Shown here: positions 2,069 to 19,671 of the stretch, in pieces
How the letters are laid out: each line of letters begins with the position of its first letter
Position numbering within the stretch: position 1 is the first letter of the stretch
Source of the DNA: Hydrogenimonas sp. SS33
Lineage (GTDB): Bacteria; Campylobacterota; Campylobacteria; Campylobacterales; Hydrogenimonadaceae
Direction: 5' to 3'
Length of the DNA: 64,000 nt
NCBI RefSeq assembly: GCF_040436365.1
Contig: NZ_AP026369.1
Span: 1,900,501-1,964,500 of the forward strand
The notes under the pieces: model-generated
Database searches by the model: none
The model's input: only the letters and a program-made list of their open reading frames with translations
What the model was told of the DNA's origin: nothing
Made by a program: the position numbers and the translations under genes

Positions 2069-2389
2069 CGCCTCCTTTTAAAATCTTCCGACCATTTGCC
2101 AGGGTCTGGCCTGTAGGCGGTAATTAAAACTGCGGGTTCATGACTTCCTTTGGGAATCCCCCAGACCACATGGACAGGTTTGCCTTCCCCATCTTTATTG
2201 AAGGACAAGACAACATGGTCCCTTACCGAAATTCGGGTAATCTTCCAAAACTTCCCCCGCCTCTATAGATACCAAAAGGTCACTGACGAATATGTTGTCT
2301 TCCGCCAATTCATCGTATCCGTGATTGGGAACGAGAACATCTCCATTTTTTACGAGGCGTTTGATGAGTTCGAAAGTTTCACTTTCCAA
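2065..2389 (-). pseudogene. DUF4258 protein gene with a frameshift
   Basis: Two reading frames together make one DUF4258-like protein. The first (TTG at 2389 to a TAA at 2195) gives a helix-rich start with NHGYDELAEDN and ends YPNFGKGPCCLVLQ. The family's next segment appears at once in another frame: KDGEGKPVHVVWGIPKG, then AVLITAYRPDPGKW, ending at TGA 2065-2067. Removing one T after the CAA codon near 2197 restores LVLQKDGEGKPVH, so the simplest explanation is a one-base insertion. DUF4258 proteins are about 100 residues and often paired with a small partner, as here. A sequencing error cannot be excluded; the start codon is uncertain. Confidence 0.65.
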
Positions 2390-2471
2390 ATCGTACCAAA
2401 CCTTTCAGCTTTTTTTTATTATAACCAAATTGGATGCAGCTTTTGTGAGATTGAGGAAGATGGGAAGAAAT

Positions 2472-11191: not shown

Positions 11192-11920
11192 ATGAAAAAA
11201 GTTGCGGCAATGCTTCTTTGCGGTGCGGCTCTGTTCGCTGCGGATTTGAAGGTAGGAGAGCTTAAACAGCATGTCGAACTGGGCTATCTGGGAACGTCGG
11301 GCAATTCCGACAGCAAAACGCTCAGTGCACTCTACGGGAACGATTACCAATGGACCGATTCGACCGATGTCCATTTCAAAACCGATGCCTATTACGGAGA
11401 AAAAGACGGGGACAAAACCGATGAACGCTACAGGGCATACGGGATCGTCAACCACCATTATTCACCCCGAGGGTACTCCTATGTGGAAGCGGGGGCACTT
11501 CGCAACACCTTCCAGGGATACAATCAACAGTATAACGGCGGCCTGGGTATGGGGTATGTCATTATCGATGACAAAATCCAGCTTTTCAAGGTCCGTGGCG
11601 GTTATCAGTACCGATGGGCCAATTTTACCGACGGTACGGATGACGATTTCCATTTTCTGAAACTCGGGGCGAACTACAATTATCAGTTCAGCGAAACCGG
11701 CAAACTCGAATCGGAGCTGAATTTCCTGAAAAATCTTGAAAGTACCGATGATTTTGAGACGGTATTCAGAATCGCGGTGAAAGTTCTGATGGCTGAAAAC
11801 CTCTCTCTGAGGGTCGGCTTCGAAGTGAAATATGACAACACTCCTCCGTTAAACGATGACGGAAGCGAAAAAGATAAAACCGATACGACGACGACGGTAG
11901 GGATCGTCTATGACTTTTAA
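11192..11920 (+). CDS. DUF481-family outer-membrane beta-barrel protein
   Basis: The 242-residue product starts with a signal peptide (KKVAAMLLCGAALFAAD, cleaved near residue 17). The rest alternates amphipathic strands and short polar turns: HVELGYLGTSGNSDSKT is the typical DUF481 first-strand motif (salt-induced, YdiY-like proteins), and the C-terminus, TTTTVGIVYDF, ends in the BAM-type Phe. The barrel would have about 10-12 strands. Its role is unknown; family members are stress-related or act as small pores. An AGAAGG ribosome site precedes the ATG. The gene is isolated; it converges with the methylase gene and shared a hairpin terminator with it before a mobile element split the two. Confidence 0.85.
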   Translation: MKKVAAMLLCGAALFAADLKVGELKQHVELGYLGTSGNSDSKTLSALYGNDYQWTDSTDVHFKTDAYYGEKDGDKTDERYRAYGIVNHHYSPRGYSYVEAGALRNTFQGYNQQYNGGLGMGYVIIDDKIQLFKVRGGYQYRWANFTDGTDDDFHFLKLGANYNYQFSETGKLESELNFLKNLESTDDFETVFRIAVKVLMAENLSLRVGFEVKYDNTPPLNDDGSEKDKTDTTTTVGIVYDF

Positions 11921-11944: not shown

Positions 11945-11968
11945 ACAAGGTAAATATTTTTACCTTGT
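11945..11968. terminator. Bidirectional hairpin between convergent genes
   Basis: ACAAGGTAAA and its complement TTTACCTTGT form a stem around a short AT loop 25 bases after the DUF481 stop. The right arm overlaps the 7-bp duplication at the edge of the inserted element, so the element landed at the base of this hairpin. Before insertion the hairpin would have served both convergent genes. Confidence 0.6.
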
Positions 11969-11970
11969 AA
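11964..11970. repeat. Left 7-bp target duplication of the MITE-like element
   Basis: CTTGTAA here is repeated exactly at 12240-12246, directly outside the other terminal inverted repeat. Confidence 0.7.
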
Positions 11971-12239
11971 CTGATGTTACGCAGTATATGCCGTCATCCG
12001 TCCAGCGAGAACGCATACGATGCGAGGCGAAAAGGTTCGGGCGTAGCCAAAGCTACGTCCGGTTCTTTTCAACGACGTCAGCGTGTGCGTTCTCGTCGGA
12101 CCCCGAAGGAGCGGCACCATCGCCGCACGATCACGGCGTTGCGACGACATCGGCGTAGCTTCGGCTACGCCTCGCCGCCGCGCCTTGTGCTCGCACGACG
12201 CTGATGCCGCGGATGGTGGCGTATACTGCGTAACATCAG
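11971..12239. mobile_element. MITE-like palindromic element, 269 bp, non-autonomous
   Basis: The ends are 30-bp inverted repeats that match at 27 positions; both begin CTGATGTTACGCAGTATA. A 7-bp direct repeat (CTTGTAA) flanks the element exactly on both sides. Inside are two hairpins. The left one (about 12006-12095) has arms CGAGAACGCATAC and GTGTGCGTTCTCG and an apex at 12041-12058. The right one has a perfect stem, GGCGTAGC, loop TTCG, GCTACGCC at 12152-12171. No credible protein is encoded, so a transposase elsewhere would have to move it. It could fold into a Y-shaped RNA when transcribed from either side. It supplies the last sense codon's end and the stop of the methylase gene on the minus strand. 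The family is not one I can name. Confidence 0.7.
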
Positions 12240-13936
12240 CTTGTAACGGATTTTCTAGGATCTGTCGCATTGCAAAGGGTTCTTTCTATATCTTTTTGCA
12301 GTAAAAGGATACTTCTTCTCTTTTCCCGTATCTCCGAAAAAATCTCCCGAGCCTTCACCGGGTCCATCGGTTGGACGTGGATCCGACCCAGCGCGTCGGG
12401 GTTGAGGGTGCGGTTGGGGCTTTCGGCATAGAGCGACTCCAACACCGCCCGTCCCTTTTTCGAACGGAAGAAGAGATAGAGCCCCTCGGCCTCTTCGCGC
12501 CTTTTCGGCCGCACGACGATCACCCCGGCGTTGGGAACCATGGCCCCTTCGCTCTTCCCGACGATGCCCACGGCATGGGGCGAGCCCCTCAATGGAAGCA
12601 GGATGTCGCCCTCCCGGAGACGGAAATTCCCGATCCTCTTCATATCGCCTCTCTTTTCCGTCCCGCGGCCGGTCGTGTAGTCGTCCTGCGCGATATCCGA
12701 GAGTCCGACCTCGAGGTATTCCGTTCCTTCCACTTTTTTGGTCTCCACGCGTTGGGCGCGGAATATCCTCTCCGCGACGTCCGAGAGGGGCACGCCGGGA
12801 CTTTGGGCCCTCTTCGGTGCCAGATAATGGGCGGGGGAGAGGCTCTGGGCGGTAATGTCGCCAACGGGAACGCGCACGCCGTGGGAGCTCTCTCTTTTCA
12901 GACGGACCGTCTCGACCAGCTCCCCGATGCGCACGATCGTGTTGCGGCGCCCCTTCCTCTTCTGATACCGCGGCACGTCCGCGTCGAGGAAGAAGACCTC
13001 TTCGTTGCCTGGCGAGAGCACCACCAGGGCCATCTCTTCCTTCCACCTGGGGATCAACCCGCCCGGAAGCGCGACCACCGCCTCGACGAGCCCGTCCATC
13101 GCCATCTTCGTGCGCACCTTCGCCTCCGCCGAGCTTCGTTTCAGCAGCGCGCCGCGCAGCAGCACCACCGCCCGTTTTTTCATCGTCGCCGCGGCGTGTT
13201 CGAGGAAGGCCAGCTCCGAGGCGTTGGCCGGCGGCACGCCGTAGCGGGCGAACCTGAAATCCCTCTTCAGCGCCTCCGTGTCCAGCGGCAGGTCGAAGGG
13301 CGGGTTGCAGACGACCCGGTCGAAACGGTGGCACTCCCCCTTCTCGCACCAGGCCGGGTCCATCAGCACGTCCCTACGCTCCAGGCGGCAGGAGGTGAGG
13401 CCGGAAAACTGCGCCGACAGCCCGGCGATGAGGCGGTTGACCCCCTCCACCTCCTCCCCGTAGAGGTCGATCTCCCTCTCGTGGCGGGCGAGGGTGCCGA
13501 AAAAGCCCCCGATGCCGAAACAGGGGTTGTAGACGCTCTCGCCCCTCCCGACCCCCAGAAGCCCCACCATCAGCTCCTTCAGCTCCACGGGGGTGGAGAA
13601 GCCGTAGAGGTCGTTGCCGCTCTTCTCGATCGTGAACTCCTGCAAAAAGCGCTCGACCGCCTCCGGATCCACGGGTGCTTCGGCCAGGTGCCTGGCGATC
13701 AGGTGCAGGGCCAGGCTCTCGTCGTGTTCGGTCACCCGGTGGCGAAGACCCAGCTCCCGGTAGGCCCGGTTGAGGGCGGCTTCGATCTCCCCCCGCTCCT
13801 TCGCCCCCGCGAGCGACTCGACGATCTCTGGGCGGTAGCGTTTGACCACGGCCAGCTCCAGCGTCTCCAGCAGCGCCAGGGAGCTTCGACCCAGGTGGCG
13901 CTTGAGGCGGTTCGCGATGTCTGTCAGGCTCTTCAT
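12236..13936 (-). CDS. Orphan N6-adenine DNA methyltransferase with C-terminal specificity-like region
   Basis: The 566-residue product resembles HsdM of type I systems joined to a target-recognition-like region. An N-terminal helical part (1 to about 115) is followed by the SAM-binding motif NPCFGIGGF near residue 137 and the catalytic NPPF near 211 (VVCNPPFDLP), typical of gamma-class N6-adenine methylases. From about residue 400 the sequence (VPLSDVAERIFRAQRVE, then YLEVGLSDI, GDILLPLRGSP, NRTLNPDALGRIHV) is like one S-subunit half, with a helical end. No restriction subunit is in the window. A GGAGAT site precedes the ATG. The final codon and TGA lie in the inserted MITE-like element; without it the end would read Arg-stop. 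metK, which makes its cofactor, is divergent upstream. Confidence 0.8.
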   Translation of the reverse strand: MKSLTDIANRLKRHLGRSSLALLETLELAVVKRYRPEIVESLAGAKERGEIEAALNRAYRELGLRHRVTEHDESLALHLIARHLAEAPVDPEAVERFLQEFTIEKSGNDLYGFSTPVELKELMVGLLGVGRGESVYNPCFGIGGFFGTLARHEREIDLYGEEVEGVNRLIAGLSAQFSGLTSCRLERRDVLMDPAWCEKGECHRFDRVVCNPPFDLPLDTEALKRDFRFARYGVPPANASELAFLEHAAATMKKRAVVLLRGALLKRSSAEAKVRTKMAMDGLVEAVVALPGGLIPRWKEEMALVVLSPGNEEVFFLDADVPRYQKRKGRRNTIVRIGELVETVRLKRESSHGVRVPVGDITAQSLSPAHYLAPKRAQSPGVPLSDVAERIFRAQRVETKKVEGTEYLEVGLSDIAQDDYTTGRGTEKRGDMKRIGNFRLREGDILLPLRGSPHAVGIVGKSEGAMVPNAGVIVVRPKRREEAEGLYLFFRSKKGRAVLESLYAESPNRTLNPDALGRIHVQPMDPVKAREIFSEIREKRRSILLLQKDIERTLCNATDPRKSVTS

Positions 13937-15805: not shown

Positions 15806-17148
15806 GATAGTGTCAAGTAACATTCGCAATTTTCTTTCCGAATGATTCATCGTCAAGCAGCCTGAAGCTGCGCCTCGTGGATTTCCATCACCTCCTGCAG
15901 TTTGGCAGGCTGGATGTAACTGCGTTCAGATTCCCAATCCTCCGTATACTCCATCAGATAGGTGGCGATCAGCCTCAGATACGATTCTCTTGAAGGAAAA
16001 ACCGATACCACCTTCGAGCGCCTCCTGATCTCCTTGTTGATCCTCTCTAAAACGTTGGTCGAACTGATCCGCCGTTTGTCGATCTGCGGAAAGTGGTAAA
16101 ACTGCAACGAATCCTCCAGACCGTTTTGCAGGACTTCGATCGCTTCGGGAAATTTCTTATCATATTCATCGATGACCATCTGTGCGATTTTGAGTGCATC
16201 TTCTCTGCTCTCTTGCAGCCAGATGCTCTTGAGCCTGGCAGCGAACCTCTCTTTGGCCCTGTGGGGGACATGGGCCAGGATGTTGCGCATGAAGTGGACC
16301 TTGCACCGCTGCCACGAAGCGCCGATAAAACTCTGCTTGAAAGCTTTCTGGATCCCCTGATGGGCGTCGCTGATCAGCAGCGCGATCTTTTCGACGCCTC
16401 TTGTCCTCAATTTATCGAAAAAGCTTTTCCACGTTTCGGTACTCTCGGCGACGAAGGGTTCGATGGCCAGCACCTCCCTGTTGCCCTCTATCGTCACGCC
16501 GTAGGCCACCATCAGGGCCGTGGAGATCACTCTGCCTTCATGGTTTCTGATCTTTTCATACAAGGCGTCGACCCAGACGAAGGGATACTCCTTTCGCAAG
16601 GGACGGTTGCGAAACGCCTCGACCTGTTCGTCGAGTCCCTTGTTGATCTGTGATACCTGGGAAGCGGAGATATTCTCGATGCCGAGCTCTTTGGCAAGAC
16701 GTTCGATCTTTCTGGTTGATACGCCATTGACGTAGGCCTCTTGCACCAGAGCCATCAACGCCTGCTCGCTTCGCCTTCTTTCGGTGATGAAAAAGGGAAC
16801 GTAGCCTCCTTTGCGGATCTTTGGAACCATCAGGTAGACCGTTCCCAGTCTGGTGTCGAACCTTCTTGGACGGTATCCGCTGAAATGGCTCTTTCGCTCA
16901 CGGCTGTGTTCTCCTTTTGATGCGCCCACTTTCATCTGTGCCTCGATCTGCATCAACTGATCCATCATCCACTTCATCATGGACAAGAGCGGATCTTCCT
17001 CTGTGACGAATCCGGTTAGGATCTCTTTGAAAATTTCGCTATCATTTTTCATGGGTAGACTTCTCCATCGTTCTTTTTCTCACCGGAAAGTCTATCCAAC
17101 CCCTTCGGGGGTCTTCAAGTGAAATTGCGAACTTTAGTGTACACTATC
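15806..17148 (-). mobile_element. Complete IS256-family insertion sequence, 1343 bp
   Basis: The ends are 27-bp imperfect inverted repeats, 15806-15832 and 17122-17148. They share GATAGTGT at the tips and TTCGCAATTT at the inner ends and match at 22 of 27 positions. An exact 8-bp target duplication (CAGATAGA) flanks the element. One transposase gene fills the interior. Perfect duplication and an intact gene argue for recent insertion. The target lay between the acidic-protein gene and the leader-distal end of the CRISPR array. Confidence 0.93.
15853..17052 (-). CDS. IS256-family (mutator-type) transposase
   Basis: The 399-residue product has the features of the Transposase_mut family: a helical N-terminal DNA-binding part, SHFSGYRPRRFDTRLGTVYL and VPKIRKGGYVPFF, then the DDE catalytic core with the first Asp in VWVDALYEKI, the second in LLISDAHQGIQKAF, and the Glu in SSTNVLERINKEIRRR. 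WQRCKVHFMRNILAHV, between the second Asp and the Glu, is the family's C/H motif. The length is usual for IS256 members and no frameshift is present, so it is likely active. The start is the ATG at 17052, and the gene is wholly inside the inverted repeats. Confidence 0.95.
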   Translation of the reverse strand: MKNDSEIFKEILTGFVTEEDPLLSMMKWMMDQLMQIEAQMKVGASKGEHSRERKSHFSGYRPRRFDTRLGTVYLMVPKIRKGGYVPFFITERRRSEQALMALVQEAYVNGVSTRKIERLAKELGIENISASQVSQINKGLDEQVEAFRNRPLRKEYPFVWVDALYEKIRNHEGRVISTALMVAYGVTIEGNREVLAIEPFVAESTETWKSFFDKLRTRGVEKIALLISDAHQGIQKAFKQSFIGASWQRCKVHFMRNILAHVPHRAKERFAARLKSIWLQESREDALKIAQMVIDEYDKKFPEAIEVLQNGLEDSLQFYHFPQIDKRRISSTNVLERINKEIRRRSKVVSVFPSRESYLRLIATYLMEYTEDWESERSYIQPAKLQEVMEIHEAQLQAA

Positions 17149-17238: not shown

Positions 17239-19671
17239 TTTTCAGGCTGCCTACGCGGCAGTTTACCCAGCCCGACATACGCCTACACCGTTGTCGTGAT
17301 TTCTAAGCTGCCTACGCGGCAGTTTACCGGGTGGCGTGGCATCGTGGCGACGGTGAAATTTTCTAAGCTGCCTACGCGGCAGTTTACGAATCTCTGCGCA
17401 GAGAGGTCGCCGACCATCTTTTCTAAGCTGCCTACGCGGCAGTTTACCAAGACCGCTCTGCTCGCGTGGATCGCTCTATTTTCTAAGCTGCCTACGCGGC
17501 AGTTTACAGCCAGTAGACGAGATCGTCTTTTGCGATACGTTTCTAAGCTGCCTACGCGGCAGTTTACTTTTTGTCAAAGACGACCGGAACGGTATCGATT
17601 TTCTAAGCTGCCTACGCGGCAGTTTACGCACGGCTTCGGCGGCGTTACGGGCGACTGCATTTTCTAAGCTGCCTACGCGGCAGTTTACAAAGAGTACAAC
17701 GAAGCGCGTCGCCATCCTGCTTTCTAAGCTGCCTACGCGGCAGTTTACCATGTGCTCGACGTTGAAGTCCATGCCGATGTTTTCTAAGCTGCCTACGCGG
17801 CAGTTTACATGCCTGCAAATATTTCGACGGAGGATGAAATTTTCTAAGCTGCCTACGCGGCAGTTTACGCTTCCATATATGGAGAAAGTCGTTATCGGTT
17901 TTTCTAAGCTGCCTACGCGGCAGTTTACCACGGCCATCTGACTATTGACATCCATGATTTTTTCTAAGCTGCCTACGCGGCAGTTTACTTCGATTTTTCG
18001 TTCACCCCCAATATCGAGCATTTCTAAGCTGCCTACGCGGCAGTTTACTCGGGGCGGCGGCGTCTTGAGAGCGGCGAGGCTTTCTAAGCTGCCTACGCGG
18101 CAGTTTACGGTCGGGTTTGAGAACCTCAGCTCCGCCGTGTGTTTCTAAGCTGCCTACGCGGCAGTTTACGGCGGAGCACCGTCCGACAGCACTATCGACG
18201 GTTTCTAAGCTGCCTACGCGGCAGTTTACGACCGGAAATTCCGGGAAGACGTGCTGAAAATTTTCTAAGCTGCCTACGCGGCAGTTTACGCCGCGCTGCG
18301 CCCGCAGAAGCGGCACGAAAATTTCTAAGCTGCCTACGCGGCAGTTTACTTGCGTGCGTTTTTGGCAAACACCGCCTCTTTTTTCTAAGCTGCCTACGCG
18401 GCAGTTTACTTTTTGACCCGGTGGGCTTCGTCGAGGATCAGTTTTCTAAGCTGCCTACGCGGCAGTTTACATCACCACAAAAATGAAGGAACTCATCTGG
18501 AATTTCTAAGCTGCCTACGCGGCAGTTTACTAAGCCATTTTTGAAAACCGGGTTCGCTATATTTTCTAAGCTGCCTACGCGGCAGTTTACGAGTCGAAGC
18601 TCGACAAACTCGAACGCGGGATTTTCTAAGCTGCCTACGCGGCAGTTTACGCATTGAGGCGTTCGTCATGGAATGTCTGCGGTTTCTAAGCTGCCTACGC
18701 GGCAGTTTACCTCTACCAAACGCTTCATCTCAGGCTCCAGTATTTCTAAGCTGCCTACGCGGCAGTTTACGCTTTTTTGGCCCTGAAAGAGAAGGTTCTC
18801 AATTTCTAAGCTGCCTACGCGGCAGTTTACGACACGAATGCGTGGTACCACGCTTTCTTTTTTTTCTAAGCTGCCTACGCGGCAGTTTACATCTCCAGCG
18901 TTGTAGATACCGACGGCGATACTTTCTAAGCTGCCTACGCGGCAGTTTACTATGGGCGGAACATGGGGCGCGGCTAAAACTTTTTCTAAGCTGCCTACGC
19001 GGCAGTTTACTCCCTCGATGTGCGCCAGATACCATTTATAAGTTTCTAAGCTGCCTACGCGGCAGTTTACTGCTCCGAATTAGCCGCCGCCGCAGTTGGG
19101 CATTTCTAAGCTGCCTACGCGGCAGTTTACAGCTATTTGGAAAGCTGAGCAAAGAATTCGGATTTCTAAGCTGCCTACGCGGCAGTTTACTGCCGGACGT
19201 TCCGGGGCCGGTTCCCTGCTTTTTTCTAAGCTGCCTACGCGGCAGTTTACCTGATTGGGGAAATCATGGACTTTTTAGGTGATTTCTAAGCTGCCTACGC
19301 GGCAGTTTACTAACGTTGCACGAGCCACGTAACCACCACTTGATTTCTAAGCTGCCTACGCGGCAGTTTACAACGCGAAGAGTCCATTTACCGGGATGTC
19401 ACTTTTCTAAGCTGCCTACGCGGCAGTTTACTGACACGAATGAAACCCAACGATTGATTGACTTTTCTAAGCTGCCTACGCGGCAGTTTACTGGAACGAA
19501 AGCGCCTAAACCGTTTACGTTGTTTTCTAAGCTGCCTACGCGGCAGTTTACGGTGAGAAATGATTCATGTCGTAAAGATCAACTTTCTAAGCTGCCTACG
19601 CGGCAGTTTACGGCAGAGACATGAAAACGATATTTTTGTAATGTTTCTAAGCTGCCTACGCGACAGTTTAC
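17239..19671 (-). CRISPR. Type I-F CRISPR array, 41 repeats and 40 spacers
   Basis: The 28-bp repeat reads TTTCTAAGCTGCC, then TACGCGGCAGTTTAC on the plus strand. In crRNA sense (minus strand) it starts GTAAACTGCC and ends GGCAGCTTAGAAA, with a CTGCC/GGCAG stem and a GCGTA loop, the I-F type cut by Cas6f to leave an 8-base CTTAGAAA 5' handle. Thirty-five spacers are 32 bp and five are 33 bp. The repeat at 17239-17266 has three changes in its first seven bases, marking the old, leader-distal end. The repeat at 19644-19671, next to the leader, has one change inside the stem (GCGGCAG to GCGACAG). All others are identical. The array is transcribed leftward from the leader beside cas6f. Confidence 0.97.

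Follow-up and report, generated by a model that had tools for sequence, protein, structure and literature searches.

A 269-bp MITE at a gene end in Hydrogenimonas and its probable parent among IS701-like insertion sequences

The 269-bp element that lies between two convergent genes of the window (the whole 64,000-nucleotide stretch of Hydrogenimonas DNA that was analysed) is a MITE and not a local palindrome. It was probably mobilised by an IS701-like insertion sequence (IS) of the NF049921 group, whose transposase would have acted on it in trans; this reading, drawn from sequence comparisons, is given a probability of about 0.9. The assignment of the parent rests on outer ends that are identical in the MITE and the IS, on the same 7-bp TTANTAA duplication, on the presence of multiple copies and on a pair of empty and filled sites.

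Table 1. Positions of the MITE, its parts and its neighbours in the window, and of a related insertion in another genome
Feature	Position	Strand	Remark
DUF481 outer-membrane-type protein gene	11192..11920	+	convergent neighbour of the methylase gene
Hairpin between the convergent genes (10-bp stem, 4-nt loop)	11945..11968	.	insertion at its 3' base; terminator role only putative
Target-site duplication CTTGTAA, left copy	11964..11970	+	fits the family target TTANTAA
MITE, non-autonomous, 269-bp subfamily	11971..12239	.	further copies in the host genome and in relatives
Left terminal inverted repeat	11971..12000	+	outer 14 bp (CTGATGTTACGCAG) equal the ends of the autonomous IS
Internal hairpin arm 1	12000..12101	.	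41 predicted pairs, of which 11 show two-sided compensatory change
Internal hairpin arm 2	12111..12210	.	includes the perfect GGCGTAGC/GCTACGCC hairpin at 12152-12171
Right terminal inverted repeat	12210..12239	-	27/30 against the left repeat
N6 DNA methylase gene	12236..13936	-	TGA stop (12236-12238) within the CTGA end of the element
Target-site duplication CTTGTAA, right copy	12240..12246	+	exact
269-bp MITE in G016	L165, about 2177-2444		interrupts a 1-Cys peroxiredoxin gene; stops in the element

The original prediction described a MITE-like element of this length with 30-bp inverted ends, a 7-bp duplication, internal hairpins and no gene, and this description holds in each part. The inverted ends agree at 27 of 30 positions, and exact copies of CTTGTAA border the element on both sides. 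Folded as a single strand, the element reaches -93.2 kcal/mol compared with -55.9 for shuffled sequences (z -9.8). Its open reading frames of 76 and 97 aa match no Pfam family and contain no recognisable gene. The element is short, lacks a transposase gene and carries terminal inverted repeats and a target-site duplication, all of which are features of a MITE; the further features (multiple dispersed copies, an empty site and ends that match those of an autonomous element) were found as well.

The insertion lies at the base of a hairpin between the two convergent genes, which had been proposed to be a terminator shared by both. The hairpin itself is present, with a perfect 10-bp stem (11945-11954/11959-11968; -14 kcal/mol, z -4.4) whose 3' end falls within the left CTTGTAA, and the genes are convergent as stated. 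A bidirectional intrinsic terminator would have a stem followed by a T-run, and because the hairpin has no T-run and is absent from the list of a consensus terminator scan, a role in termination can only be suggested. The proposal that the insertion exchanged the stop codon of the methylase gene and left the protein almost unchanged was borne out: when the flanks are joined with a single CTTGTAA the methylase ends in SVTR-TAA, while the filled site reads SVTS-TGA. No ortholog of the N6 DNA methylase was found in 17 relatives, and hence no empty site for the window locus, so that this locus was only presumably once empty.

The host genome (complete, 2.25 Mb, genus Hydrogenimonas) contains nine other full-length copies of the 269-bp form (91-98% identity), one copy with a deletion (239 bp) and one half copy. 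A second subfamily of 110-135 bp has the same outer ends, and end pairing identified 34 paired copies of it in the host genome. The 13-bp end occurs 84 times at no more than one mismatch, compared with two occurrences of the reversed control. Clear copies of the 269-bp form are present in the relatives G002, G003, G004, G012 and G016, with weaker partial matches in G005 and G008, so that the search for further copies that had been proposed was positive both in the host and in its relatives. The closest pair of 269-bp copies is identical at 264 of 269 positions, suggesting that transposition activity was not ancient. A shared duplicated context for copies 147586 and 959397 was considered and rejected, as only 139 bp (the element and its duplication) match, and by this comparison the two are independent insertions. 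The same intergenic region carries a 269-bp copy in G003 (L076) and a 125-bp copy in the host genome (L137), and one junction seems to coincide in the two, which may reflect a shared hot spot or a replacement. The family, with a minimum of 45 paired copies in a genome of 2.25 Mb, has to be considered when gene ends and intergenic regions of Hydrogenimonas are annotated.

Exact 7-bp duplications border 18 of 45 paired copies and nine more have duplications with one mismatch, compared with an average of 0.6 (at most four) exact duplications in a shuffled-partner control. Averaged, the exact duplications give the palindromic consensus TTANTAA. Roughly one in three paired copies lacks a duplication that can still be recognised, consistent with these copies being old. 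The empty site that the original prediction proposed to look for was found for another copy of the family. In G016 the element is inserted into a peroxiredoxin gene (CCTTTATAA, element, TTTATAATC; duplication TTTATAA), and the matching site of the host genome is uninterrupted (CCTTTGTAATC), with an open reading frame running through.

A transposase whose own element ends match those of the MITE, the third object of the proposed searches, was found outside the genus. The end motif has 59 exact matches in a Thiotrichaceae MAG and 19 in a Pleurocapsa MAG, with none for the reversed control, and a search of the Thiotrichaceae order revealed elements that have perfect ends, CTGATGTTACGCA(G), and a length of 1108-1115 bp. 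These ISs of about 1.1 kb encode a transposase of about 352 aa that scores 348 bits against the NCBIfam profile NF049921, 'IS701 family transposase' (transpos_IS701_2), for which the curated cutoff is 250 bits. The transposase also matches Pfam DDE_5 and DDE_Tnp_1, and it reaches 83 bits against NF033540, which is below the cutoff of that profile. Twelve 7-bp duplications flank intact IS copies and average to TTANTAA; duplications of 8 bp occur once or twice (L236, and L234, a 1245-bp interrupted copy). Autonomous ISs with MITE-matching ends are present in G334, G364, G366 and G367 and in named plasmids (e.g., Thiothrix unzii pTunz2). Full-length ISs with perfect or near-perfect ends were found in T. 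unzii, Polaromonas naphthalenivorans (duplication TATTTAA), Cyanobacterium sp. HL-69, Stanieria and Acinetobacter schindleri (TTATTTA), and the named relatives in Moraxella and Piscirickettsia have variant ends. Only the ends are common to MITE and IS; none of the MITE interior was matched to the IS. Viral contigs scanned for an 18-mer gave no match, a search for the 18-mer among 245 genomes of the Pleurocapsa order led back to the starting genome alone, and an exact text search of the literature for CTGATGTTACGCA found no mention. Dense occurrence of the same ends was seen in G060, G324 and other MAGs of the Thiotrichaceae order (e.g., 59 in 2.4 Mb); they frequently lie at the margins of contigs, so that these repeats break assemblies. 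In G359, of the Thiothrix order, a 412-bp element (L233) and the 1245-bp IS with an interrupted transposase (L234) have the same ends and are possible intermediates between IS and MITE.

Protein and profile searches of the host genome detected no transposase of the NF049921 group, and mobilisation by such an enzyme is thus deduced from relatives. A relic in G002 consists of the C-terminal 109 aa of the transposase (48% identity) abutting a CTGACGTTACGCA end, in the same layout as the intact IS, whose stop codon falls within the end. The joining of this relic to the same end indicates that the parent was once present in the genus, and with no transposase in the host and a fragment in G002 the MITE family looks stranded. 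In the proposed mechanism, the DDE transposase would bind both ends of the element, excise it and, with cuts staggered by 7 bp, insert it at AT-rich sites that resemble TTANTAA. Later the enzyme would have been lost from the host genome, leaving dispersed and probably immobile copies, and in the window the TGA of the element would have taken over as the methylase stop. Several other candidates were set aside. The first search was for a parent of the PF01610 or PF01609 type, and transposases of the ISL3 and DDE_Tnp_1 types are absent from the host genome; long candidate elements in G002 and G004 (L154, L155 and L170) contain no transposase; and the TAACTGA repeats of Beggiatoaceae (PMC4679880), considered since the junction reads TAACTGA, are linked to no transposase or MITE in that paper.

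The ISs of the NF049921 group (e.g., that of T. unzii pTunz2) share with the MITE their ends and the 7-bp TTANTAA duplication but are about 1.1 kb long and carry a gene, whereas the MITE is geneless and has 269 (or 110-135) bp. By the NF049921 profile the parent belongs to the IS701 family, but its 7-bp (once or twice 8-bp) duplications and CTGATG ends depart from the canonical IS701 family, which has 4-bp duplications and ---YACT ends (PMC2266710); both have a DDE transposase and are related at the profile level (NF033540). ISAba11, an IS701-like element of Acinetobacter, has a similar length and a transposase of the same broad superfamily, yet this transposase is only 24% identical to that of the parent group, and ISAba11 makes duplications of 5 bp (PMC7885321) compared with 7 bp, so the parent does not belong to the ISAba11 group. 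MITEAba12, also from Acinetobacter, provides a precedent as an IS-linked bacterial MITE that has stops in all frames and is fused to a gene end (PMC6382973). Like the window MITE it is tied to an IS by its ends and the length of its duplication, but it is of the ISAba12 type, with GGCTTTGTTGCACAAA ends and a 9-bp duplication. A MITE with an IS parent is judged to be an already known kind of system, of which the Hydrogenimonas family is a new instance. It provides a worked case in which the parent IS of a MITE has been traced across phyla from its ends, the length of its duplication and its target consensus, even though this parent is absent from the host.

The strong folding of the element would also suit a local palindrome or a structured regulatory or noncoding RNA element that does not move. 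A 101-pair consensus fold over 18 full-length copies from six genomes has 97.2% of cells paired and two-sided changes in 32 of the 101 pairs, compared with 93.6% and 11.6 in a shuffle control in which none of 500 shuffles reached either observed value, although counts of compensatory change are inflated by the relatedness of the copies. The 123-bp subfamily follows the same trend more weakly (96.8% versus 95.1% paired; 11 two-sided cells versus 2.7). An immobile structure nevertheless has very little probability, since the copies are dispersed, each with its own 7-bp duplications, the ends are identical to those of autonomous ISs and no Rfam family matches the element; the empty and filled pair refutes it as the sole explanation. 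A structural or RNA role of the MITE in addition to its mobility is possible, and compensatory changes could also arise without selection, by templated correction inside long palindromes. Movement by a different resident transposase, such as that of the IS256-type element 5 kb away (a Mutator-type transposase), is highly improbable. That element reads GATAGTGT... at both sides instead of CTGATG, the host has neither of the two transposase types that were sought first, and the NF049921 IS matches both the ends and the duplication exactly.

The position of the insertions bears on whether the element has been retained as a useful mobile terminator or stop cassette (stops and a hairpin) rather than as a mere parasite. 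Both strands of TTANTAA contain a TAA, and the CTGA with which the element starts provides a TGA, so gene-end insertions tend to be harmless and the near-neutral insertion at a gene end becomes understandable: the target itself is a double-stranded stop signal. The swap of the methylase stop follows from this target preference and is one of several stop-neutral cases, a listing that also includes frames that are not genes, in which the coding end is unchanged or altered by one residue and the stop comes from the duplicated target or from the TGA of the element. Of the 45 insertions, 14 lie no more than 12 nt from a predicted stop codon, compared with 9.1% of TTANTAA-like sites and 2.9% of all positions, by home-made gene calls with a simple hexamer score. 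The recurrence of stop-neutral ends and the covariation of the structure also suit a cassette. However, when insertions inside genes are excluded the comparison is 14/38 with 7/37, which is probably not significant, and target preference together with the purging of harmful insertions is enough to explain the enrichment; retention as a cassette is thus unlikely. A broader proposal, that the IS701-like group evolved the TTANTAA target and CTGA end to hit stops without changing proteins and that the folded three-arm structure of the MITE is selected, as covariation over its whole length may suggest, is speculative and rather unlikely.

The window and the host genome contain other repeats. A second MITE-like family, unrelated to the first and with members about 250 bp long (L107-L112), has at least six copies in the host genome with the ends TAGACTTCTTGCARAACTATAC / GTATAGTTTTGCAAGAAGTCTA, and its members share a CGTAGC/GCTACG hairpin. 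On the minus strand of the window, a CRISPR array of 38 CRISPR-DR4-type repeats (17300-19611) adjoins the IS256/Mutator-type transposase at 15853-17052.
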